This document shows, in pieces, positions 10,311-23,533 of a stretch of 23,895 nucleotides of DNA. Below the pieces are notes generated by a model that saw nothing but the letters and a program-made list of their open reading frames with translations, made no database searches and was not told the origin of the DNA. How positions within the stretch are numbered: the first letter of the stretch is position 1; every line of letters begins with the position of its first letter. Origin of the DNA: a virus. Position numbers and translations under genes: made by a program. Location: the IMG/VR virus record IMGVR_UViG_3300019886_000027, positions 1-23,895 of that record. One strand, 5' to 3'.

Positions 10311-11111
10311 ATGCCACCCGAAGATCAAGTTCAAGACGATGTAGAATTACCAGTAGGGGATGTTATAGATGATACGAACGACGATTCTATTGACGATTCT
10401 ACTGATGGTGATGTTCAGGACGACAATCAAAGCAACGATGAGGATTCTCCTGAAGAAGTTGCTGAAGCCAGAAGAATTTATAAACTTCTAAAAGACCCCA
10501 AAACGGCTACGAGTCTCGTAAGAGAGTTAGCCCACGCCGAGGGACTTTTAGATGGGACGCCCAATACGCCGAAGGACATTAAAACGGCGAAGGCGTCAAT
10601 AAAAGATATTCTCAAGGAAAAACTTGGGGATAAATACGATTTCCTCACGCCTGCATTGGCGGAGGCTTTCGAAACAATTCTCGCTGGTGAGCGGGAAACT
10701 CAGCAACAAAGCATCCAACAGATGCAAATCGATCAAACAAAGCGAGAGACGACAGATGTTTTGTCAAAACTCGCCAAAGAAACAAAAGGGGAGTCTCGCA
10801 AAGTAGAATCCCGAATGCTTGAATTAATGAATGAATTCCAGATCGGCCCTGGAGTTCCAATCGAGAAATACCTCCGTGGTCTTTATGCACAAGCGTCTGC
10901 TGCGCGCACCGCTACAAATGCTAAGAACACACAAAACGATAAAATTCGTCGAAATGCAAATGATGCACCTAGCCGATTGCAATCTTCCTCATCTGGGGCT
11001 GAAAATACCCGTATTAAAGATGCTGGAATCGATCCAAACAAACCGATGACTTTGAAAGAATCCGTCGCCTTTGCAGTCGCTCAACAGAGTCGTCAGGGAA
11101 CACGAAAATAA
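10311..11111 (+). CDS. Capsid scaffolding protein
   Basis: The 266-aa product has a strongly acidic, disordered N-terminus of about 50 residues (Asp and Glu runs). A helical middle follows (ARRIYKLLKDPKTATSLVRE), then Gln-rich coiled coil, then a basic, Asn/Ser-rich C-terminus. This composition and its place between portal and major capsid genes are typical of internal scaffolds, whose C-terminal helix binds capsid subunits. AAAGGA lies 7 nt before the ATG, which itself abuts the previous stop. No protease motif is seen within it. Confidence 0.8.
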   Translation: MPPEDQVQDDVELPVGDVIDDTNDDSIDDSTDGDVQDDNQSNDEDSPEEVAEARRIYKLLKDPKTATSLVRELAHAEGLLDGTPNTPKDIKTAKASIKDILKEKLGDKYDFLTPALAEAFETILAGERETQQQSIQQMQIDQTKRETTDVLSKLAKETKGESRKVESRMLELMNEFQIGPGVPIEKYLRGLYAQASAARTATNAKNTQNDKIRRNANDAPSRLQSSSSGAENTRIKDAGIDPNKPMTLKESVAFAVAQQSRQGTRK

Positions 11112-12188
11112 ATGTCTGTAACTTTTGGAGCATCCTCTGCTCCTTCGCAGGTAACACTTAATCTTGATAGTCTTTTTGGACAGTCCTTAGCTGCCTACAA
11201 AAAGACCTTGACGGATAATATTGGCGCAACTAACGCTTTCTTCTATGAAATGATGAAGAAGGACCTCTATGAGAGTCAAGAGGGAAGTTTCATTCAAATT
11301 CCGTTGATGTATGCTTTGGCTCCTGCCGATTCTTATGATGGTTATGACGAATTGTCTACCCTTCCGACAGACGGCATCACTGATGCTATTTTCCAATGGC
11401 GTCAATGCGCTTCTCCTATTGCTTATAGCGAGAAAGAACGAAAGCAGAACAAAAACAAAATCATCGATCTCGTTCAAAGTCGAATCAAGCAATCTGAAAT
11501 GGGCTTGCAAGAATATTTTGCACAGGCTCTTTTGTGGGGAGCGGCTGCTGATGGTGGTAGTTTGACGGCGGCGCGGACTTCTGCCATTAATGGATCTTCG
11601 AGTATTGATCCGCTTACGCTTCTCATTGCTTTTGACCCGACCACCTCAACTTCTATCGGCAATATTAATCAAAATACTTCAACCTGGTGGCGTAACAAAA
11701 CCAAAACCAGTGCAGCAACCACTTATGATGGTTTCCTTCTGGAATTGGATAACATCTTTAACAGCACCGCACTAGGAACTGGTGGAAAACCTACTCAGGT
11801 TCTCATGGATCAAATCACGTATGAACTTTTTGTTCATGCTCTCTATCAGAAATATCGTCAAATCAAAACCGATGAGAATTTCCCGTTTGAAAACACTCTA
11901 TACAAAGGCGCCCATGTTACAATGGACGACAAAGTACCGGATGTTTATACAGGAGTCACTTCGGCTGCGACGTATGGATCTGCTTATTTCATCAATGCAG
12001 CATTTTTCAAACTGATTTATGAAAAGGAATCAGATTTTGAATTGCTGAAGGATGAGAATGGCAAGTCCTTCCAAAAGCCCACCAACGGCGACAGCCGTGT
12101 CGCGCATATTGCGTGGATGGGAAATACCACTGTCAGCAATCGTCGTAAACAGGGTGTATTCGGTAAGATTGCTCGGACTCTCACGTAG
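11112..12188 (+). CDS. Major capsid protein (HK97-like fold presumed)
   Basis: The 358-aa product directly follows the scaffold. It begins with a helical N-arm (LNLDSLFGQSLAAYKKTLTD). It contains stretches expected of HK97-fold capsids: an extended loop region rich in strand formers (SFIQIPLMYALAPADSYDGY), a long spine-like helix (KNKIIDLVQSRIKQSEMGLQ) and a mixed A-domain with KPTQVLMDQITYELFVHALY. The C-terminus has FKLIYEKESDFELL and basic residues. Order, size and composition make the call firm, although no single motif proves the family. AGGGAA lies about 11 nt ahead of the ATG, which abuts the scaffold stop. Confidence 0.85.
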   Translation: MSVTFGASSAPSQVTLNLDSLFGQSLAAYKKTLTDNIGATNAFFYEMMKKDLYESQEGSFIQIPLMYALAPADSYDGYDELSTLPTDGITDAIFQWRQCASPIAYSEKERKQNKNKIIDLVQSRIKQSEMGLQEYFAQALLWGAAADGGSLTAARTSAINGSSSIDPLTLLIAFDPTTSTSIGNINQNTSTWWRNKTKTSAATTYDGFLLELDNIFNSTALGTGGKPTQVLMDQITYELFVHALYQKYRQIKTDENFPFENTLYKGAHVTMDDKVPDVYTGVTSAATYGSAYFINAAFFKLIYEKESDFELLKDENGKSFQKPTNGDSRVAHIAWMGNTTVSNRRKQGVFGKIARTLT

Positions 12189-12811: not shown

Positions 12812-13552
12812 ATGAAAATCATGATCGGCATCAACACACTCACTCAAATGGATCAACTCGCCTATACCAATCATTGTCAATTTTGGTATCATCTTGGTAA
12901 AGACTTCCCAGAAGTAACTTTTGCTCTCTCCAATCCCCGCCGAGCTTCCATCGACAGAATGCGTAATCAGACGGCGCGAGTTGCATTGGAAAACGATTAT
13001 GATTATGTCATGTTTATTGATGATGACGTACTTATTCCACTAGATGCTCTTCGACGCCTTTTAGACGCTAAGGCGGATATTGCTGCTGGATGGACGATTA
13101 TACGTGGTTATCCGTATAATAACATGTTTTTCAAGTTTGATGTAGATGGTAAGGATGTCATCTATTATAATGATTTTGTGCTCAATGAGCAGGGTTTAAT
13201 CGAGTGTGATGCAGTGGGATTTTCTTGTGTGCTCATTGATTGTAAATTGCTCAAGCGGGTTCCCCCACCATATTTCGTAACTGGTCTTTTCAATACTGAA
13301 GATGTTTATTTCTGTATCAAAGCAAAGAAGTTTGTTCCTGAAGTCTCTATCGTCGTAGACCCGAACGTAAAAACAGCCCACATCTTAGGATCTGAGGTGA
13401 TCGAACCCAACAATCGAGAAGCATACAAGAAATTCTTCGAGGAAGTTTATCCTGAAAATGTCCCGAAATTTCCTAAATTGACTGAGAATGGTGATAGAGG
13501 AACTGAATATCTTAAATATGTGAAAGAAGCTATCAAAGATGAAGTCTCTTAA
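12812..13552 (+). CDS. GT-A fold glycosyltransferase (family 2-like)
   Basis: The 246-aa product starts with a Rossmann-like strand (MKIMIGINTLTQMDQLAYTN). Its metal- and nucleotide-sugar-binding triad is Asp70-Asp72 in VMFIDDDVLIPLDAL, the DXD-type motif of GT-A enzymes. Further shared positions are EC...G..CVLID, an NTEDVYF acidic motif that could supply the catalytic base, and a His in VKTAHI. There is no membrane segment. AAAGGAAAA precedes the ATG. It overlaps the methyltransferase gene by 14 nt, so the two probably act on one glycan. The acceptor is unknown: virion protein, host surface sugar or another molecule. The protein at 16207 has the same motif series. Confidence 0.75.
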   Translation: MKIMIGINTLTQMDQLAYTNHCQFWYHLGKDFPEVTFALSNPRRASIDRMRNQTARVALENDYDYVMFIDDDVLIPLDALRRLLDAKADIAAGWTIIRGYPYNNMFFKFDVDGKDVIYYNDFVLNEQGLIECDAVGFSCVLIDCKLLKRVPPPYFVTGLFNTEDVYFCIKAKKFVPEVSIVVDPNVKTAHILGSEVIEPNNREAYKKFFEEVYPENVPKFPKLTENGDRGTEYLKYVKEAIKDEVS

Positions 13553-14072
13553 TTTGGGTTGTGGTGCTGCTAAGATTGCCGGCGCGGATAATGTCGATAT
13601 CAACCCAGATTGTAAAGCAGATCTTTCTTTTGACTTCAAAGGTCCTTTTCCCCTGCCGGATAATGTGTATGATGAAGTTTATCTTTTCCATGTAATTGAA
13701 CATATTGAGAAGAAATTTCATGTACAGCTCTTTAGCGAGATCCGACGGGTCATGAAAGCTGGTGGAATTCTTTATGTCAGCTACCCCGAATTTTCTAAGA
13801 TTGTTCAGAATTGGTTAATCAATAAAAATGCTGATCGAGTATTTTGGGAAGCAACGATTTATGGTCGCCAATCCTGGCCTTCTGATTATCATGTTTGTGC
13901 GATGGATACGCTTGATTTCAAGCAGTATCTCTACGAACGTGGTTTTAATATGATTTCACATCGACCAGAACCAATCGATCAATTCAACACAATTTGTAAA
14001 ATCGTAAAGGGTGAAGCCCCTATCATGTATGAGGAAGTGGTTTTTAATGAGATTTTCGCTAAGAAAGGTTAA
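13539..14072 (+). CDS. SAM-dependent methyltransferase, class I
   Basis: The 177-aa product has motif I LNLGCGAAK (residues 4-12), an acidic motif II VDINPD with Asp20, a post-motif LFHVIEHIEK (about 49-58) and a motif RRVMKAGGILYVSYPE. This is the order of small Rossmann methyltransferases that modify sugars, lipids or small molecules. Length is short, with little beyond the core, so substrate specificity may come from a partner. The ATG lies inside the end of the glycosyltransferase gene (14-nt overlap), so the two are translationally linked. The most likely job is O-methylation of the sugar or glycan made by its neighbour. Confidence 0.75.
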   Translation: MKSLNLGCGAAKIAGADNVDINPDCKADLSFDFKGPFPLPDNVYDEVYLFHVIEHIEKKFHVQLFSEIRRVMKAGGILYVSYPEFSKIVQNWLINKNADRVFWEATIYGRQSWPSDYHVCAMDTLDFKQYLYERGFNMISHRPEPIDQFNTICKIVKGEAPIMYEEVVFNEIFAKKG

Positions 14073-14371: not shown

Positions 14372-14992
14372 ATGACCCGCGCCGAGCAAGAGTTGCGATT
14401 ACGCAATTATTTTGAGAATAACGACTATTACTCGTCATTCGACTTCTTGAACAGCATTCAAGATGGTTATGATGAAGTAATAGCATTTTCTGGTTGTATT
14501 GTCAAAGCTGCTGTTCTCCCTTTTACAGCAAACCTCACATACTATGATCTCCTTACACTTCTCCCCGACTACATTGGGTTAATCAGCATCTATAATACGG
14601 TGACAAATCGCTGGATGTCTCCAACATCTGAGAGGAAGATGGATAAGATCAGGCCAGATTGGGAAACCTGCTACGGTACTCCTGAACTCTTTTATCCGGT
14701 AAATCACCGCTTTTTAGCCCTTTACAGGAAACCTTCAGTTGTAGGTTATGGGAATTTCTACATCTATTACATAGCTTCCGCGCCGGCCCTAGCCGCAAAT
14801 GATACTATTCAAATTCCCACTGATTATGTAAGTGCACTCGAAGATTATTGCATTACAGATCTTCAGGAGCAAGCTCAAGAATTTTCCAAAGCTCTGATGA
14901 GATTTTCATCTTATCAAGAAAATTTAAGTCAATTGCAAAGATGGGCAAAATCATCTCGCCAGCCTGATCGGCTACCCAATTTGAGAGGTTAA
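14372..14992 (+). CDS. Head-tail adaptor-like protein 1
   Basis: The 206-aa product has an N-terminal helix, a strand-rich centre (YDLLTLLPDYIGLISIYNTV), a FYPVNHRFLALYRKPS segment and a C-terminal helical bundle. A strand-rich core between helical ends is the plan of podoviral adaptors that bridge portal and nozzle (gp4/gp6-like). It stands immediately ahead of a second protein of the same plan. The ATG follows the preceding stop directly (TAAATG) without a visible SD, so it depends on coupling. Confidence 0.6.
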   Translation: MTRAEQELRLRNYFENNDYYSSFDFLNSIQDGYDEVIAFSGCIVKAAVLPFTANLTYYDLLTLLPDYIGLISIYNTVTNRWMSPTSERKMDKIRPDWETCYGTPELFYPVNHRFLALYRKPSVVGYGNFYIYYIASAPALAANDTIQIPTDYVSALEDYCITDLQEQAQEFSKALMRFSSYQENLSQLQRWAKSSRQPDRLPNLRG

Positions 14993-14995
14993 GCT

Positions 14996-15703
14996 ATGGC
15001 AACAATCTGGTCTGATGATTTCCTCGAACAATTAGCGACTGATGCTGAACAAGAAATTCAGCAAGCGATAACCTGTATCTATCATAGGTTCTTTCTGACA
15101 ACAGTTGCTGGTACATCTATTTACACTCTTGATGGATTAGTGCGCGGAATTAAACGAATAACCTGGCGGGGCAGAAAAGTCGATCCTTGTTCTTGGGAAG
15201 ATTTGCACGCGCTTTCGCCCCATACTGCTGTTGTAGATAGTGGAAATAGGGTCGAAACCTCAGAAAGTAGACCATTCTGGTATGCTCTCCATCCTACAAA
15301 CATCCATGATATCCGATTTTATCCTACTCCAAATGAATCCTTTACTAATGTTGGAGACCCTTTTTCTCCCACTCCAAATGAAGCTAAATGCACTATTAGC
15401 TGCTGGAGGAATATTGATCTTACTAATCCTCTATACAGCCTCCCAGCTTATATTGATAGGCGGACTCGGAAAGCCTACATCTTGTGGAAAGCATTTGAAA
15501 AAGAGGGAAAAGGGCAAAATCTAACGGCATCGAAGTATTACGCACAGAAGTACAAATTCTTGATCGAACAATTCAGAGCCATTAATCAATCTCCTTATGT
15601 CAGCAAGCGATATTCATTAGATGATGGTACACTCAGTACCTTGGAAGCTAGACGATACCCAAAACCGACACTTCCTCCAAATTTTGAAAGGATTATTTAT
15701 TAA
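14996..15703 (+). CDS. Head-tail adaptor-like protein 2
   Basis: The 235-aa product has an Asp/Glu-rich N-terminal helix (SDDFLEQLATDAEQEIQQAI) followed by FFLTTVAGTSIYTLDGLVRG. It then has a 'W.g..l.p.s...l' part (ITWRGRKVDPCSWEDLHALS) and an ISCWRN block. A segment SRPFWYALHPTNIHDIRFYP is close to a pattern shared by gp6/gp4-type adaptors ('RP..Y.......i.fyP.P'). GAGAGGT lies 9 nt ahead of the ATG. It overlaps the next gene by one base (TAATG). The adaptor role is inferred from plan and gene order. Confidence 0.65.
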   Translation: MATIWSDDFLEQLATDAEQEIQQAITCIYHRFFLTTVAGTSIYTLDGLVRGIKRITWRGRKVDPCSWEDLHALSPHTAVVDSGNRVETSESRPFWYALHPTNIHDIRFYPTPNESFTNVGDPFSPTPNEAKCTISCWRNIDLTNPLYSLPAYIDRRTRKAYILWKAFEKEGKGQNLTASKYYAQKYKFLIEQFRAINQSPYVSKRYSLDDGTLSTLEARRYPKPTLPPNFERIIY

Positions 15704-16206: not shown

Positions 16207-17232
16207 ATGCTTCAGAAACTTCATCATGGTCCGGGAATTGTGATTGGGCTTCCCACATTAGGGAGGCCCGTTTCAATAGATTGGGCACTTGCTTTCAAAT
16301 CTCTTAATCCCCCTATTAACTTTAACACAATCTTCCAAATCGTCCAGAATCAAGAAATTGGAGACGCGCGGCAGGCTATCGCTGAGATGGCTGTAGAAAA
16401 GGGAGCAAAATTCCTTTTCTTCCTTGGCGATGATGTTGTGGTTCCCTCACATACCCTCAGAAATCTCATTTATCGCCTTGAACAAGATGCAAGTATTGCA
16501 GTTGTGGGAGGTGTGTATTGTGCAAAAGCAACGCCGACATTTCCTCTTGTATTTCGAGGGAACGGCCAAGGCAGTTATTGGGACTGGAAAATTGGTGAGT
16601 TTTTTGAATGTACCGGACTGGGAATGGATTGTACTCTTATCCGCACTTCCGTGCTAGAAGGCTTAAGCAAACCCTGGTTCAAGACGGTAGATACTGATCA
16701 ATATTTTGATGGTTTGAATCAAGCGGAGGTTTGGACAGAGGACTTGTTCTTCTTCAACAAACTTGCAGAGGAGAAGCCTGAGGCGAAGGTGTATTGTGAT
16801 GGTGGTGTAATTTGTGACCACATTGATGTTTACGCGGGGAAGAAATACAATCTCCCTCCTACATCATTGCCAATGCGTCAAAAAGGCGCCATCAAAGATA
16901 AAAAGTGCCTCATCATTGGTCCCGCGCTGAATCTCCAAGACGATAGTTTTGACGTTACCACTTATGGAGATTATGACGGCGCGGATTATCGTGGTCCCGT
17001 CGGATTAATGCCTTTTGAAGAAGGACAATTTGATTTCTGCGTCGCACAGGGTGTGAGTGTCAACTTTCCTGATTACATCAAAGAAATCCTCCGAGTGCTC
17101 AAAGTTGGAGCGAAACTCTCTCTACTTCCTGGGGAATGGATGGATTATCAGAAAATGGCAGATTGGTTCAAACAACATCTCTCGATGGAATCAAAGATTG
17201 ATGGTAATTATCTGGAACTGACGAAAATTTAG
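16207..17232 (+). CDS. Glycosyltransferase fused to a degenerate methyltransferase-like domain
   Basis: ATG at 16207 follows AAAGGATAT at SD spacing. Residues 1-215 repeat the motif series of the gene at 12812: IVIGLPTLGRP at the start, Asp75/Asp76 in FLGDDVVVP, EC..LGMDCTLIR (from 134), WTEDLFFF (Glu178/Asp179) and a late His (DHIDVY). Residues 232-341 look like a small class I methyltransferase but have lost the usual Gly-rich loop: motif I reads CLIIGPALN. FDFCVAQGVSVNFPDYIKEI and LRVLKVGAKLSLLPGEW match the later motifs. Thus the two separate enzymes at 12812-14072 have a fused, partly degenerate counterpart here. The C-terminal part may be inactive, structural or have changed cofactor. 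Confidence 0.65.
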   Translation: MLQKLHHGPGIVIGLPTLGRPVSIDWALAFKSLNPPINFNTIFQIVQNQEIGDARQAIAEMAVEKGAKFLFFLGDDVVVPSHTLRNLIYRLEQDASIAVVGGVYCAKATPTFPLVFRGNGQGSYWDWKIGEFFECTGLGMDCTLIRTSVLEGLSKPWFKTVDTDQYFDGLNQAEVWTEDLFFFNKLAEEKPEAKVYCDGGVICDHIDVYAGKKYNLPPTSLPMRQKGAIKDKKCLIIGPALNLQDDSFDVTTYGDYDGADYRGPVGLMPFEEGQFDFCVAQGVSVNFPDYIKEILRVLKVGAKLSLLPGEWMDYQKMADWFKQHLSMESKIDGNYLELTKI

Positions 17233-17726: not shown

Positions 17727-19148
17727 ATGGCACGATTCACTAAAAATGTCCTTTGGACACAAAAACCCCCACAAGGGACAGTTATAGTTCCTGGAAATTA
17801 TGCTCCAGATGTGATTGCTTGCCCGTTCAATGAAACACCTGGTGGGAAAGTTATATTCAATTATGCAACAGGACCATTTAATTTTCCCAGGAGTGGTACA
17901 ACAGTTAATACAGTTACAAGTTATGTGGGGGGTCGGCGCGGCTCACGTCTGAGAGTTACTGACGTTAATACAGCGATGGCATCATTCACAAATGGAGGTT
18001 CTTTTACTCCAACTGTTGGCGTGACAATCATTTGTGGATTTAAGAAAACAGATGCAACTCTTAGATCATCTGGTGCTTTTGGAACTAATGCAGCTTCAAG
18101 ACTTGGGGCACATTGTCCATTTAGTGATGGCGTCGTTTACTGGGATTGGGATAATGCTGGCGCGGGATTTAGAATTTCTAAATCAGGATTAACTTTTGGG
18201 GATGATATTTGGGCTTTCACAATGGGTCCTGTCAGAGGTCAAGAAATCTGGCAGAATGGAATTTTAGTAGCTACCGGATCTTATGGAGGCACACGAACTG
18301 CGAGTTCTCAAGATTATATAATCGGTAATCACAACACCACTTTAGCTGATCTTGTAGATTGGGATTTCTTTTATATGTGGAGTTACCAACTTCCACAAGG
18401 AGCGGTTCAGCAAATTTGTGAAAGACCTTTTAAGGTTTTTGATGGTAGTTATAAGACAAAGATTTGGGCAGGATTCCCCGCCGGATTCCTTCCTATCACA
18501 GAAACTCTCTCAGATACTCTTGTATTATCAGATGCTATTGGATTAGGATTTGGGAATGCTTTATTTGATTCTTTTACTTTCTCAGATGCATTCACAACGC
18601 TTGTTCCAATTTTAGGACTGAGTTTATCTGATACATTAAGTTTGTCAGATTTCGCTGCATCGACTCTTGGCTTAATCATATCAGAACAGCTTCTGCTCTC
18701 TGATCTATTAGATTATGGTCTTTCACTTCCTCTCTCAGATTCGGATTCAATAACTCTATCAGATGCTGTAATCTTCTTAATTGGAGTAGGATTAGGAAAA
18801 TCTGATACCCTCACATTCAGCGATGTATTGAGAATTGCAACTGATGTAAGAAGAACCCTCGGGGATAACATTTTATTGAGTGATTTCCTAGTCACTCTCC
18901 TCGCTGGATTGCCAACATATTCGGATAGCTTTGCTTTGTCAGATACGGCGCGGCTTGGCTTGTCACTTGGATTAAGTCAAAATGATTCTCTTGTTTTGTC
19001 AGATGCTGTACTATTGGCCATCGTCAATAATCTGATTGTGACCAAATCGGACACATTGAATCTCTCTGATAACATCGAGCTAAGTCTTACTGGTACTGGT
19101 AATTTGGACCAGTACATTCGACATTGGTTGAATGATGTTCCTAGATAA
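17727..19148 (+). CDS. Lectin-like (LamG-type) protein with ten SDxLxLSD repeats
   Basis: The 473-aa protein has a beta-rich N-terminal region (about 20-245) of concanavalin/LamG type (VTIICGFKKTDATL; IWQNGILVATGSYGGTRTA; LVDWDFFYMWSYQL). From about residue 257 it has ten repeats of about 20 residues with the pattern [S/x]D[S/T]hxhSDxhxh, for example SDTLVLSDA, DSFTFSDAF, SDTLTFSDV and DSLVLSDAV. It ends NLDQYIRHWLNDVPR. The N-terminal domain would bind a carbohydrate and the repeats would form an extended shaft or spacer. The ATG abuts the previous stop with no clear SD. The next gene carries five more repeats and the same ending. Confidence 0.65.
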   Translation: MARFTKNVLWTQKPPQGTVIVPGNYAPDVIACPFNETPGGKVIFNYATGPFNFPRSGTTVNTVTSYVGGRRGSRLRVTDVNTAMASFTNGGSFTPTVGVTIICGFKKTDATLRSSGAFGTNAASRLGAHCPFSDGVVYWDWDNAGAGFRISKSGLTFGDDIWAFTMGPVRGQEIWQNGILVATGSYGGTRTASSQDYIIGNHNTTLADLVDWDFFYMWSYQLPQGAVQQICERPFKVFDGSYKTKIWAGFPAGFLPITETLSDTLVLSDAIGLGFGNALFDSFTFSDAFTTLVPILGLSLSDTLSLSDFAASTLGLIISEQLLLSDLLDYGLSLPLSDSDSITLSDAVIFLIGVGLGKSDTLTFSDVLRIATDVRRTLGDNILLSDFLVTLLAGLPTYSDSFALSDTARLGLSLGLSQNDSLVLSDAVLLAIVNNLIVTKSDTLNLSDNIELSLTGTGNLDQYIRHWLNDVPR

Positions 19149-19516
19149 TGCCTACAACACTTACAACATCCGACCAGCTTACGCTGACAGATTCTCTCAT
19201 TCTGCATTTGGGGAATCCATTCACCCGCGCGGTAGGTGATAATCTTTTCCTGTCAGATTCAGCTCAATTTCTCGTTAATCTTCTCTCAAATCCCTCCGAT
19301 CATTTCACCTTTTCAGATCAACTTCGAATATTAAAATCAATCCAATTGGTCTTTGCCGACGCTTTCAGCTTCTCAGATAATTTAGTGGACCCGGTGGAAG
19401 CCGTGCAACTTCTCCTCTCTCTTTCAGATTCTCTTGTTCTATCAGATGTTGCTTCAATTTCATCGTCAGAAACATTAGAACAATACTTGCGGAGATATCT
19501 GAATGACGTTAGCTGA
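19148..19516 (+). CDS. Second SDxLxLSD repeat protein, 122 aa, with the same C-terminal tag
   Basis: ATG at 19148 overlaps the previous stop by one base (TAATG). The protein is almost only repeats: SDQLTLTDS, DNLFLSDSA, SDHFTFSDQ, ADAFSFSDN and SDSLVLSDV. It ends TLEQYLRRYLNDVS. That end matches the ending of the 473-aa protein in the pattern QY[IL]R..LNDV. It has no lectin part, so it may be a truncated duplicate or a second subunit of the same fibre. Its last 14 nt overlap the start of the endolysin gene, so the tag codons hold the endolysin ATG. Confidence 0.6.
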   Translation: MPTTLTTSDQLTLTDSLILHLGNPFTRAVGDNLFLSDSAQFLVNLLSNPSDHFTFSDQLRILKSIQLVFADAFSFSDNLVDPVEAVQLLLSLSDSLVLSDVASISSSETLEQYLRRYLNDVS

Positions 19517-19903: not shown

Positions 19904-22900
19904 ATGGGGAATCTGACAAAATTAAATTGGCCAGGAGGATACTATCCCTCCCAAGATGCCATCGGCGGAAATCCAGAAACACTCTTACGAGCAGATAATC
20001 TCCAACAAGAACAGGAAGGTTCCCTTGGCCTGTGCAGAAGTATTTCCCAGATCAAAACCTTTAACGATGTAATTACCAATTTCTACAGCAAGACATATGG
20101 CGGGGTTGAATATCTTTATGCTGGGGTTGGTAGTTGTCAATCTGTCAAGGAATTCCTATTTGATGGGACGCAGCGTTTTACTGGGGATTTAATTAGTAAT
20201 GCGAATGGGCGTCCTGTTTTTGGAGATGCTTACGGACAGGTTTTAGTTTGTGCAGGATCACAGAGGCATAAATTCAATGGAGCAACTGTCTACAAACTTG
20301 GATTAGAGACTCCCCTCATTCCCATTCGATCCAAAAATCCTCAAACAAATGTAGTTGAGACTTTCATTGAAAATGCTGCTGAAGCGGAAATTGTACCTTC
20401 TGCACAAGGCGGCGCTGCTTGGACTTTGGGTGAAGGAACCTTAGATTCTTCTGACGATCATTCTGCCAAGTTTTTTCCTGATTCAACAACCAACCGCGCC
20501 GTGCTTTCATGTACCTTCACTCCACCAATTGACATCCTAAATATCGCCGCGCAACAAAGCACAAATCCAGGTAATGACACATTCTTCATGGATGTGCAAC
20601 TTGATGATCCCAATGCTTTCTCCTCAGTTCGGGTTAAACTGAATTTGGATGCTCTTGGACAGAATTATTATTGGTTTGAATGGACTGTACCTGGTTCTAC
20701 AGAATTTAGTCTTTCAAGAGATGCTTGGTCGAAAATTTCAGCATCCCGCTCCCAGTTTAATCGGCAAGGAGAAGATGTATCTCTTGATTGGAGAACGATC
20801 AAATCTATTGAAATTAGCGTTAATGCCGTAGCATCTACTTCATTTGTTTCAATCGCTACTCCTCGATTCATCGGTGGTATTAATGGGCAACTTTTAGGAA
20901 GTTACCAATATATCTATCGATGGATTAAAGATATGGGAACCTATTTGGCAAAAAGTCCATTTAGCCCCGTTTCAGAGACATTCACCGTTATCAATGGGTC
21001 TGTTTTTGTTCTCCCCGCCACTCCTACAGATCAAACAGAAGCAGGTGGATTGCAATTTTGTACGGTTGAGATTTATCGACGTTCGGTTCCATCTACCGAA
21101 TCTTACTTCAATTCCCTTACAGGACAATTTGCACAACTACCAGATATCTTGGATCAATTCTATTTGGTTTCAGATGGAACTGGTCCTGGTGCGTATACTC
21201 AGGATATTGTCGGAGATGTTGAAACACTTGAGAGAGATACTCCTGCCAACATATTTTTGGATTCAGTTCAAAATATTGCTGAGCCAATTGTAGACATCGT
21301 TGGAATTTATAATGACAGGGTTCTCTATCTGACGGCATCTTCGCTCTATCTTTCTGAGCGGTTAAATCCAGATTCCTATGATGTCCGCTATACATTGAAA
21401 TTCACAGGAGATCCTTTCGATACAAATTTTTGGATCAAATCTATCAATAATGCGACATTGATGTTGGGATCAAACCATGACCTTTATGAGATCAGTGGAA
21501 CTCTGCTCGATTTGCCAGACGGTACTCTTGATATCAATGTATACGCTTTTGGAGATGCTTATCCTCCTATTTCTCTTGATGTTGCTAAAGTTGATGGACT
21601 TCTTTTTTATGTCGCTGCTGATGGGGTGCGCACAACATCTGGATCTAATTCGAGCTTGTTAAGCCCACATCTCTCTCAATTGTTTCAGGGTATAGATTGT
21701 CATGGTGTTCCTGCTATTCAAATCTTCGCCAATGGAGTTCAGCGATATTATCTCACTGTTGGGCATGGGAAACTTTATGTAGCTTTGCCCCATACTGATG
21801 GATTGAGGAGATTGTTTGTCTACGATTTGATGAAAAAAATCTGGACAATGCGATCTACTTACATAACTGGTTGTCATACAACAGCTACAGATAAGGTTAT
21901 TTTCGCTGAGGGTGGTGTAGCATTTTTAGCAGATTCATCGAATACGTATTCTGGCGGCGCGGCACAACCCATTAATTTACTTACAGTTTATGACCATGAT
22001 GGAACCCCACGGAATCGCAAAGACACAGAAACGCTGAAACTTGTAGTTAATACAGGTGGAGCAAATGTCGATGTGTACCTTGGTGTGATGAAAGCCACTG
22101 GGACAAATATGATGTTTGTTAGAACTATTAACACATCAAGTTTACAGACAGTCTATATTTCGCTCAAAGAGATTAGTTTCTCTCTAGGTTTTCGTTATGC
22201 GCTTCAACTCATCGGCGCGGCTCTAACACAATTTCAACTGACCGAATACACAATCGAATACCTTCCAAGACCGGAGCAAATCAACTATGTTCGAATTCCT
22301 AATTCCAATCTGGGTTCTACCGGACGTAAACGATTTATTTCAATCCCTTTCGTCATTGATTGTTTGGCTGCTACTGTACGTTGTACTCCCATTATCGATA
22401 ATGCGTCTCTTTCAGCTACTTCAAACTTTACATCGATTGACCAAAAAGAAACCAAGAACCACTTCTTTCTCTCAGAGACGGTAGGAACGGATCTAGGTTT
22501 CATACTAGAGTCATTAGATGGGTCGCCGTTTGAATTAACTGGACCAGATTATAGCAAAGCTGTTAGTGAGACAATGCCCGCTCCTGCGGAGTTCTTGCTA
22601 ATCCCCCCGTCTGATTTTGGATCACCGAATCGTAAAAGAGCAACATCTATTAAATTCGAACTGAATACAAAAGGTGTTGATGTAACTTTCACGCCCCGTG
22701 TGGATCAGGTTGATTATCCTCCAATGACTTGTAATAGTGGAGAGGATAAGAAGAAAATCTTCGAATATTTCTTCAGTATTGCTCTTGGGGATTTCACTTG
22801 GTTTATGCTTGGAGGATCTTTTTTAGGTGTAAGTCCATTTGAGTTGTATGGTGAATTAATTCCGCAGAATCTAGAAATCTTTCCTCCTCGACTCAAATCA

Positions 22901-23533
22901 CTGTATCTAGCGGAGAACAATTATGGTGCGGCTGCTCGCAAACGGATTCGTACCCTTCCACTTGTTATTAATACTAACGGTTCTGATGTCACATATCAGC
23001 CTTATGTGGATGGTGTGCTTTATCCTCCTACTGTTCTTAATTCTGCAAAGAAAGCAACTCTTTATCATTTTTTTGCTACTGATTCTTTTGGGATTGACTA
23101 CGCTGGGTTTTTGTCTGGACTACAGCCTTTCGAATTCTACGAAATGGCGACTCCACTTGGTGTCGAAGTCTTGCCAGTTCCGAGAAAATTTGATCAATTG
23201 GGTCCTCTGCGTTTCGACAAAATTGGAAAACTCTTCTCACTTAGACTCAGAGTCATATTGGTGGGAACTACAACATCTATTCCTTTTGCTATCTATGGGG
23301 ATAATCAAGAAATGGATCCGACATACGACACTACTCCTCAATACAGTGGAGCTTTCCAGATAACTCCTGGGGAAGATGTTGTGGTGCAAGCAAATTTACC
23401 AAAAAGTGTTAATTCAACAATCTTCAGAGTAACTTTGGGACCAACGTTGGATGCGTTTCATAGATTTGATTTACAAGCAAAAGTAGCAATTAGTGGTATG
23501 GAAACTGATTCGAAATGGATGCCAATAAGATGA
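19904..23533 (+). CDS. Large tail nozzle / tail-hub-like protein with four C-terminal repeat domains
   Basis: This is the largest product, 1,209 aa. GGAG lies about ten bases ahead of the ATG. The N-terminus (GGYYPSQDAIGGNPETLLRA, then DNLQQEQEGSLGLCRSIS) matches the opening of podoviral nozzle or stabilisation proteins (T7 gp12 / P22 gp10 type). Residues 150-690 contain propeller-like blades such as VDIVGIYNDRVLYLTASSLY and FWIKSINNATLMLGSNHDLY. From about 700 to 1090 there are four similar domains of about 100 residues. The last three open around [YL]..P.......RKR..S.P...N..G and close with SPFEL or QPFEF. The last 115 residues are a distinct end. The nozzle interpretation is inferred from plan and position; the repeats may be an added receptor-binding or stabilising arm. 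Confidence 0.75.
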   Translation: MGNLTKLNWPGGYYPSQDAIGGNPETLLRADNLQQEQEGSLGLCRSISQIKTFNDVITNFYSKTYGGVEYLYAGVGSCQSVKEFLFDGTQRFTGDLISNANGRPVFGDAYGQVLVCAGSQRHKFNGATVYKLGLETPLIPIRSKNPQTNVVETFIENAAEAEIVPSAQGGAAWTLGEGTLDSSDDHSAKFFPDSTTNRAVLSCTFTPPIDILNIAAQQSTNPGNDTFFMDVQLDDPNAFSSVRVKLNLDALGQNYYWFEWTVPGSTEFSLSRDAWSKISASRSQFNRQGEDVSLDWRTIKSIEISVNAVASTSFVSIATPRFIGGINGQLLGSYQYIYRWIKDMGTYLAKSPFSPVSETFTVINGSVFVLPATPTDQTEAGGLQFCTVEIYRRSVPSTESYFNSLTGQFAQLPDILDQFYLVSDGTGPGAYTQDIVGDVETLERDTPANIFLDSVQNIAEPIVDIVGIYNDRVLYLTASSLYLSERLNPDSYDVRYTLKFTGDPFDTNFWIKSINNATLMLGSNHDLYEISGTLLDLPDGTLDINVYAFGDAYPPISLDVAKVDGLLFYVAADGVRTTSGSNSSLLSPHLSQLFQGIDCHGVPAIQIFANGVQRYYLTVGHGKLYVALPHTDGLRRLFVYDLMKKIWTMRSTYITGCHTTATDKVIFAEGGVAFLADSSNTYSGGAAQPINLLTVYDHDGTPRNRKDTETLKLVVNTGGANVDVYLGVMKATGTNMMFVRTINTSSLQTVYISLKEISFSLGFRYALQLIGAALTQFQLTEYTIEYLPRPEQINYVRIPNSNLGSTGRKRFISIPFVIDCLAATVRCTPIIDNASLSATSNFTSIDQKETKNHFFLSETVGTDLGFILESLDGSPFELTGPDYSKAVSETMPAPAEFLLIPPSDFGSPNRKRATSIKFELNTKGVDVTFTPRVDQVDYPPMTCNSGEDKKKIFEYFFSIALGDFTWFMLGGSFLGVSPFELYGELIPQNLEIFPPRLKSLYLAENNYGAAARKRIRTLPLVINTNGSDVTYQPYVDGVLYPPTVLNSAKKATLYHFFATDSFGIDYAGFLSGLQPFEFYEMATPLGVEVLPVPRKFDQLGPLRFDKIGKLFSLRLRVILVGTTTSIPFAIYGDNQEMDPTYDTTPQYSGAFQITPGEDVVVQANLPKSVNSTIFRVTLGPTLDAFHRFDLQAKVAISGMETDSKWMPIR

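Follow-up and report, generated by a model that had tools for sequence, protein, structure and literature searches.

A short conserved tag on fibre-like proteins of an uncultured short-tailed phage, a candidate docking peptide for tail appendages

An uncultured short-tailed phage, represented by a 23,895-base IMG/VR record (the window), encodes two adjacent proteins of very different size, P1 and P2, that finish in nearly the same short peptide. This raises the question of what such a tag does at the end of two chains, and whether it belongs to this gene pair or to a wider group of phage proteins. The preliminary description suggested that the tag is a docking or trimerising element, with P1 as the long and P2 as the short subunit of a single fibre.

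A repeated shaft, a shared end and a variable head

The two genes and their parts are as follows.

17727-19148, + strand: P1, the long chain; open reading frame of 473 aa
17727..18500, + strand: N-terminal head of P1, residues 1-258, probably LamG/concanavalin-like, from weak similarity to LamG-headed relatives
18513..19100, + strand: SD repeats of P1 (shaft), ten units of about 20 residues, from the repeat pattern and PHROG 12240
19104..19139, + strand: C-terminal tag of P1, LDQYIRHWLNDV, from the tag alignment; predicted short helix, residues 460-468
19148-19516, + strand: P2, the short chain; open reading frame of 122 aa with five SD repeats and the tag, a paralogue of the P1 C-terminus
19475..19510, + strand: C-terminal tag of P2, LEQYLRRYLNDV, from the tag alignment; predicted helix, residues 110-119

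The stop codon of P1 and the start codon of P2 share one base (TAATG). Units of the form D-x-h-x-h-[STN]-D, spaced by 18-23 residues (mode 20), occur ten times in P1, with one unit starting with E, and five times in P2, far above the means of 0.13 and 0.07 units and the maxima of 3 and 2 obtained when the residues of P1 and P2 were shuffled 10,000 times; the ten and five repeats of about 20 residues that had been described from the letters are thus borne out. In the 20-residue consensus, D1, L3, L5, S6 and D7 are kept, and hydrophobic residues tend to alternate over positions 9 to 19, the pattern expected for short beta strands. AlphaFold monomer models, which are of low confidence (mean pLDDT 42.6 for P1 and 58.6 for P2), place two strands in each repeat of the P1 shaft, mostly at pLDDT of about 50-63, and end both chains in a helix spanning the tag. 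Fold searches with the P2 model returned no significant match. The profile of PHROG 12240, a family of unknown function, matches the SD region of P1 (E 3.5e-6), of P2 (0.01) and of relatives—10 of the 16 members in an alignment of relatives—and is uninformative on the tag.

With LDQYIRHWLNDVPR as the end of P1 and LEQYLRRYLNDVS as that of P2, each followed directly by the stop codon, the chains do carry the matching tags originally reported, with the nine-residue consensus Y[IL]R[HR][WY]LNDV. Residues 5-121 of P2 can be aligned to P1 residues 356-471 (37% identity, E about 1e-15), in register throughout—including a common R-x-x-G-D-N-h-h-L-S-D—and over the last five repeats of P1. By this alignment, P2 arose long ago as a paralogue of those five repeats and has kept their register. 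The duplication that had been proposed from nearly identical ends is therefore upheld, but near-identity is confined to the tag, and the likeness of the two tags is accounted for as well by selection on the tag as by duplication. The age of the duplication follows from the sole close relative found, locus L003, in which the same gene pair encodes chains of 592 and 124 aa, ending in YIRHYLNDVPR and YLRRYLNDVS, respectively, and is followed by a lysozyme gene and then by a protein that is 81% identical to the 1209-aa protein of the window. Orthologues in the window and L003 are 54-55% identical, and paralogues 37-40%; the duplication thus predates the split between the two.

No Pfam match, with the LamG profile included, was found for the P1 head. 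In a six-sequence comparison, it showed weak similarity to two LamG-headed relatives, L012 (E 0.002) and L039 (E 0.005), and it is probably LamG/concanavalin-like on this basis; the LamG profile PF13385 itself matches L009 at 1.8e-17 and L012 at 5.3e-6, the latter just below the curated cut-off. The L003 long chain has the shaft and tag of P1 and an N-terminal head of another type, unrelated to that of P1, indicating that these proteins vary at the N-terminal end and are conserved at the C-terminal one. Furthermore, the same shaft and tag carry LamG heads in L009 and L012, an F5/8C-like head in L043, a cohesin head in L018 and no head in L007, L019 and L020.

Relatives of the tag and the tail genes beside it

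The search for other phage proteins ending in the tag was run in two ways. An SD-repeat profile made from four C-termini found 15 further loci, in every one of which the protein has SD repeats and ends in the tag, 1-7 residues from the stop codon. The 1209-aa protein was used as a second query, avoiding selection by the tag, and 19 of 21 records found with it have the tag (10 of the 12 that were new relative to the tag search), the two tagless records, L034 and L046, being contigs that start at or inside the gene of the query protein. In all, the tag was seen in about 24 distinct phages; its absence from relatives of either chain, named at the outset as an observation that would count against a common element, was not encountered, and it survives in both. 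Variants ending directly at the stop codon include AYLRRYLGDVPR (L033), TYYRRYLNDVVR (L043), TYLRQYLNDVIN (L039) and YIRRHLNDIR (L040), and in L047 and L048 the tag is followed by 23-27 residues, with the L048 copy (YYRRYLDD) having been identified through alignment with L047 and not by profile. Three candidates from strict DNA scans, L004, L005 and L028, were ruled out as chance matches.

The 50,697 named phage records searched yielded no relative with the tag: tblastn with P1, P2 and tag-bearing peptides gave no match, in a search in which the low-complexity filter may mask the repeats, and nozzle and portal queries gave none either. Relatives of the major head protein were found in a Bradyrhizobium phage and two Manatee Spring phages, all distant, and the tag profile gave nothing better than E 1.9 on their records. 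One module, in L052 (JAHFMX010000009.1), lies on a 42.6-kb phage-like contig within a bacterial metagenome-assembled genome of about 1.2 Mb ('bacterium isolate nzgw467'); no second nozzle was found among 380 genomes of the phylum of that assembly, so the host link is weak and no host can be named from it. On the same contig, a tagless protein of 533 aa with SD repeats is encoded at L052:7065-8666, in addition to a separate tagged chain at 10943-12028.

The tag genes lie among the following tail genes of the window.

14372..14992, + strand: adaptor 1 (SU10-type), alternative docking partner; PF24175 SU10_adaptor, E 1.5e-10
14996..15703, + strand: adaptor 2 (SU10-type), alternative docking partner; PF24175 SU10_adaptor, E 3.4e-11
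19904..23533, + strand: nozzle-like tail protein of 1209 aa, candidate docking partner, from gene order beside SU10-type adaptors

Both adaptor matches exceed the curated cut-off. The label 'nozzle' rests on gene order, with no family match, and a nine-member profile of the 1209-aa protein gave no PDB sequence match and no link to solved nozzles. Homologues of this protein, at 27-81% identity, occur in nearly all tagged genomes; BLASTP self-comparison detected no internal repeats in it, and a hand-cut alignment suggests three. In a tree of these homologues, the position of L042 was disregarded, its row probably being out of frame. The association of the tag with adaptor and nozzle genes is constant. 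The two tandem adaptor genes are kept in most other loci, with their order relative to the tag gene varying. A gene at 16207-17232 encodes a fusion of glycosyltransferase-2-like and methyltransferase-like parts, each scoring slightly below its curated Pfam cut-off, and most loci keep this gene next to the tag gene; second glycosyltransferase-like and methyltransferase-like genes lie at 12812-13552 and 13539-14072.

Two records, L051 and L029, contain the tag and no SD repeats. In L051, a collagen-like fibre protein (L051:7223-7999) has the tag at its N-terminus, its first residues being MSEETDYLRRYLADPEG; collagen triplets (PF01391, 3.9e-13) come next, and a separate domain closes the chain. 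The gene lies between those of adaptor 2 and the nozzle, 1 nt upstream of the latter, with its start overlapping the adaptor 2 stop (ATGAGTGA). Between the two adaptor genes, L051 also encodes a likely tailspike of 668 aa, whose C-terminal domain is that of a K1 capsule lyase (L051:4404-6410; PF24146). In L029, a 54-aa protein (L029:2023-2187) has two tags 31 residues apart in a tandem unit, and one small gene separates it from the downstream nozzle gene. When the tag model was rebuilt without these two records and searched against 4,304 ORFs, L029 (E 2.8e-10) and L051 (0.013) were recovered, the next hit being a chance match at E 1.9. The N-terminal position is thus known from a single genome at a modest E of 0.013, and a search for relatives of L051 recovered L051 itself and nothing else. 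The 15703 gene is missing in both records and the 16207 gene has distant matches only, with the adaptors and nozzle kept; the 12812 and 13539 genes are both present. Thus, it is the tail ring that the tag follows, and not the neighbouring glycosyltransferase-like protein of the 16207 gene.

Docking and its alternatives

From these comparisons, P1 and P2 are best read as fibre- or spike-like tail proteins that the tag docks to the tail, most likely at the nozzle or adaptor ring (probability about 0.55). The SD repeats would form a beta-structured shaft, presumably a trimeric fibre, and the tag, generalised as Y-[LI]-R-R-Y-L-N-D-V, a short amphipathic helix. Since the tag occurs on very different fibre-like proteins beside a tail-tip gene, its role is probably that of a plug by which interchangeable fibres are held on the virus tail. 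With the tag C-terminal in most members, the variable N-terminal head would be the outward-facing end, opposite to the polarity of ordinary fibres, which attach by their N-terminus. Two chains probably share the docking site in the window: P1 with its lectin-like head, and the headless P2. The L029 protein, with its two tags, could bridge two docking sites. Adjacency of genes also fits other roles of the tag.

The main rival is that the tag serves trimerisation or registration, with three amphipathic tags packing together to start or lock fibre folding from either end of the chain, and with no binding to the virion. What is likely a trimeric shaft does terminate in a predicted amphipathic helix, and collagen-like proteins, such as that of L051, require a nucleating end. 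However, a peptide of nine residues is small to trimerise on its own; Y, R, N and D, which are among the most conserved positions, are polar or aromatic, as in a specific interface; and a double tag in a 54-aa protein makes little sense for fibre registration. The occurrence of the tag without repeats, N-terminal in L051 and in tandem in L029, likewise favours docking. Trimerisation is therefore considered unlikely, and of the two roles first suggested for the tag, docking is preferred.

Less probable still is that the tag acts at an assembly stage, as a site for a phage chaperone, protease or modifying enzyme (for example, the neighbouring glycosyltransferase or methyltransferase), and is not a structural joint. 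The glycosyltransferase-like and methyltransferase-like genes (those at 12812, 13539 and 16207) are conserved in the cluster, but the 16207 gene, the nearest to the tag gene, is only distantly matched in L029 and L051, which keep the tag, and no conserved cleavage-like position was seen. The presence of the 12812 and 13539 genes in both records leaves this reading some probability.

We give similarly little credence to P1 and P2 forming one heteromeric fibre, in which long head-bearing and short headless subunits would be joined through a tag-mediated core. Tagged paralogues adjoin in the window and in L003, and L059 encodes a tagged pair of one headless chain and one LamG-headed chain (LamG by similarity to L012). 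These three are, however, the only loci with two tagged chains, most tagged genomes having a single one, so function does not call for hetero-assembly, and a fibre built of a long and a short subunit is not supported as a rule; two separate homotrimers at equivalent docking sites explain the pair equally well.

Finally, the tag might be conserved as DNA, through an AATGA within it that gives the next gene its start codon. In the window, the start codon of the gene after P2 (19503) does sit within the P2 tag, and the downstream ORF likewise starts within the NDV codons in L003 and L039, but the next gene starts elsewhere in most loci, so gene overlap cannot account for the conservation. Moreover, AAC in some tags removes the ATG, and Y, R and L stay the same although their codons vary freely. 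Five of the eight residues of the core Y-x-R-x-x-L-N-D are nearly invariant: in 28 copies, Y1, R3, L6 and D8 do not vary and N7 is present in 25, with R3 and L6 each using all six of their codons and a pooled pN/pS of 0.13. The codon data already largely refute this last reading, to which we attach next to no probability.

Known docking systems and implications

Short docking peptides of receptor-binding proteins are already known, as is C-terminal virion attachment with variable N-terminal domains. In Klebsiella phage, an N-terminal docking peptide of about 30 aa anchors RBP2 to the T4gp10-like domain of RBP1 (PMC13073335). There, as would be the case here, interchangeable receptor-binding modules dock to the virion through a short conserved peptide; the likeness is one of description, and whereas the RBP2 peptide is longer, N-terminal and bound to another receptor-binding protein, the tag has nine residues, is mostly C-terminal and is encoded beside adaptor and nozzle genes. 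In phage SU10, the short tail fibre gp16 docks on the fibre-dock loop of nozzle gp17 via Tyr23-Ile24-Tyr25, within a short, aromatic and hydrophobic contact segment (PMC9509320). The adaptor and nozzle organisation of the tail is shared with SU10, whose adaptor family both window adaptors match, but SU10 fibres are attached by their N-terminal part (PMC9509320), unlike the usually C-terminal tag; no closely spaced trio of conserved tryptophans was found in the window nozzle. In T4 Hoc, a conserved C-terminal part binds the virion and variable N-terminal domains face outward (PMC10385173), an arrangement resembling that of the P1-like proteins, although Hoc uses a folded capsid-binding domain on the head, in contrast to a peptide that is associated with tail genes. 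P1-like proteins are the opposite of an N-terminally anchored tail fibre with a conserved N-terminus and a variable C-terminal tip, the usual polarity being seen among tagged proteins in L051 only.

Neither the tag peptide itself nor the combination seen here (nine residues, at either end of the chain or repeated in tandem, on unrelated shafts) came up in the literature searched. We tentatively propose, as a possibility that falls somewhat short of even odds, that across a clade of uncultured phages this helix of nine residues docks tail appendages universally and whatever its position in the chain: C-terminal in reversed-polarity fibres with N-terminal receptor-binding heads, N-terminal in collagen-like fibres, and doubled in a possible bridge peptide. 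If this is true, a phage lineage can swap whole fibre architectures, and even their polarity, while keeping one tiny plug, and the tag would provide a sequence handle for receptor-binding proteins of uncultured phages that are absent from family databases.
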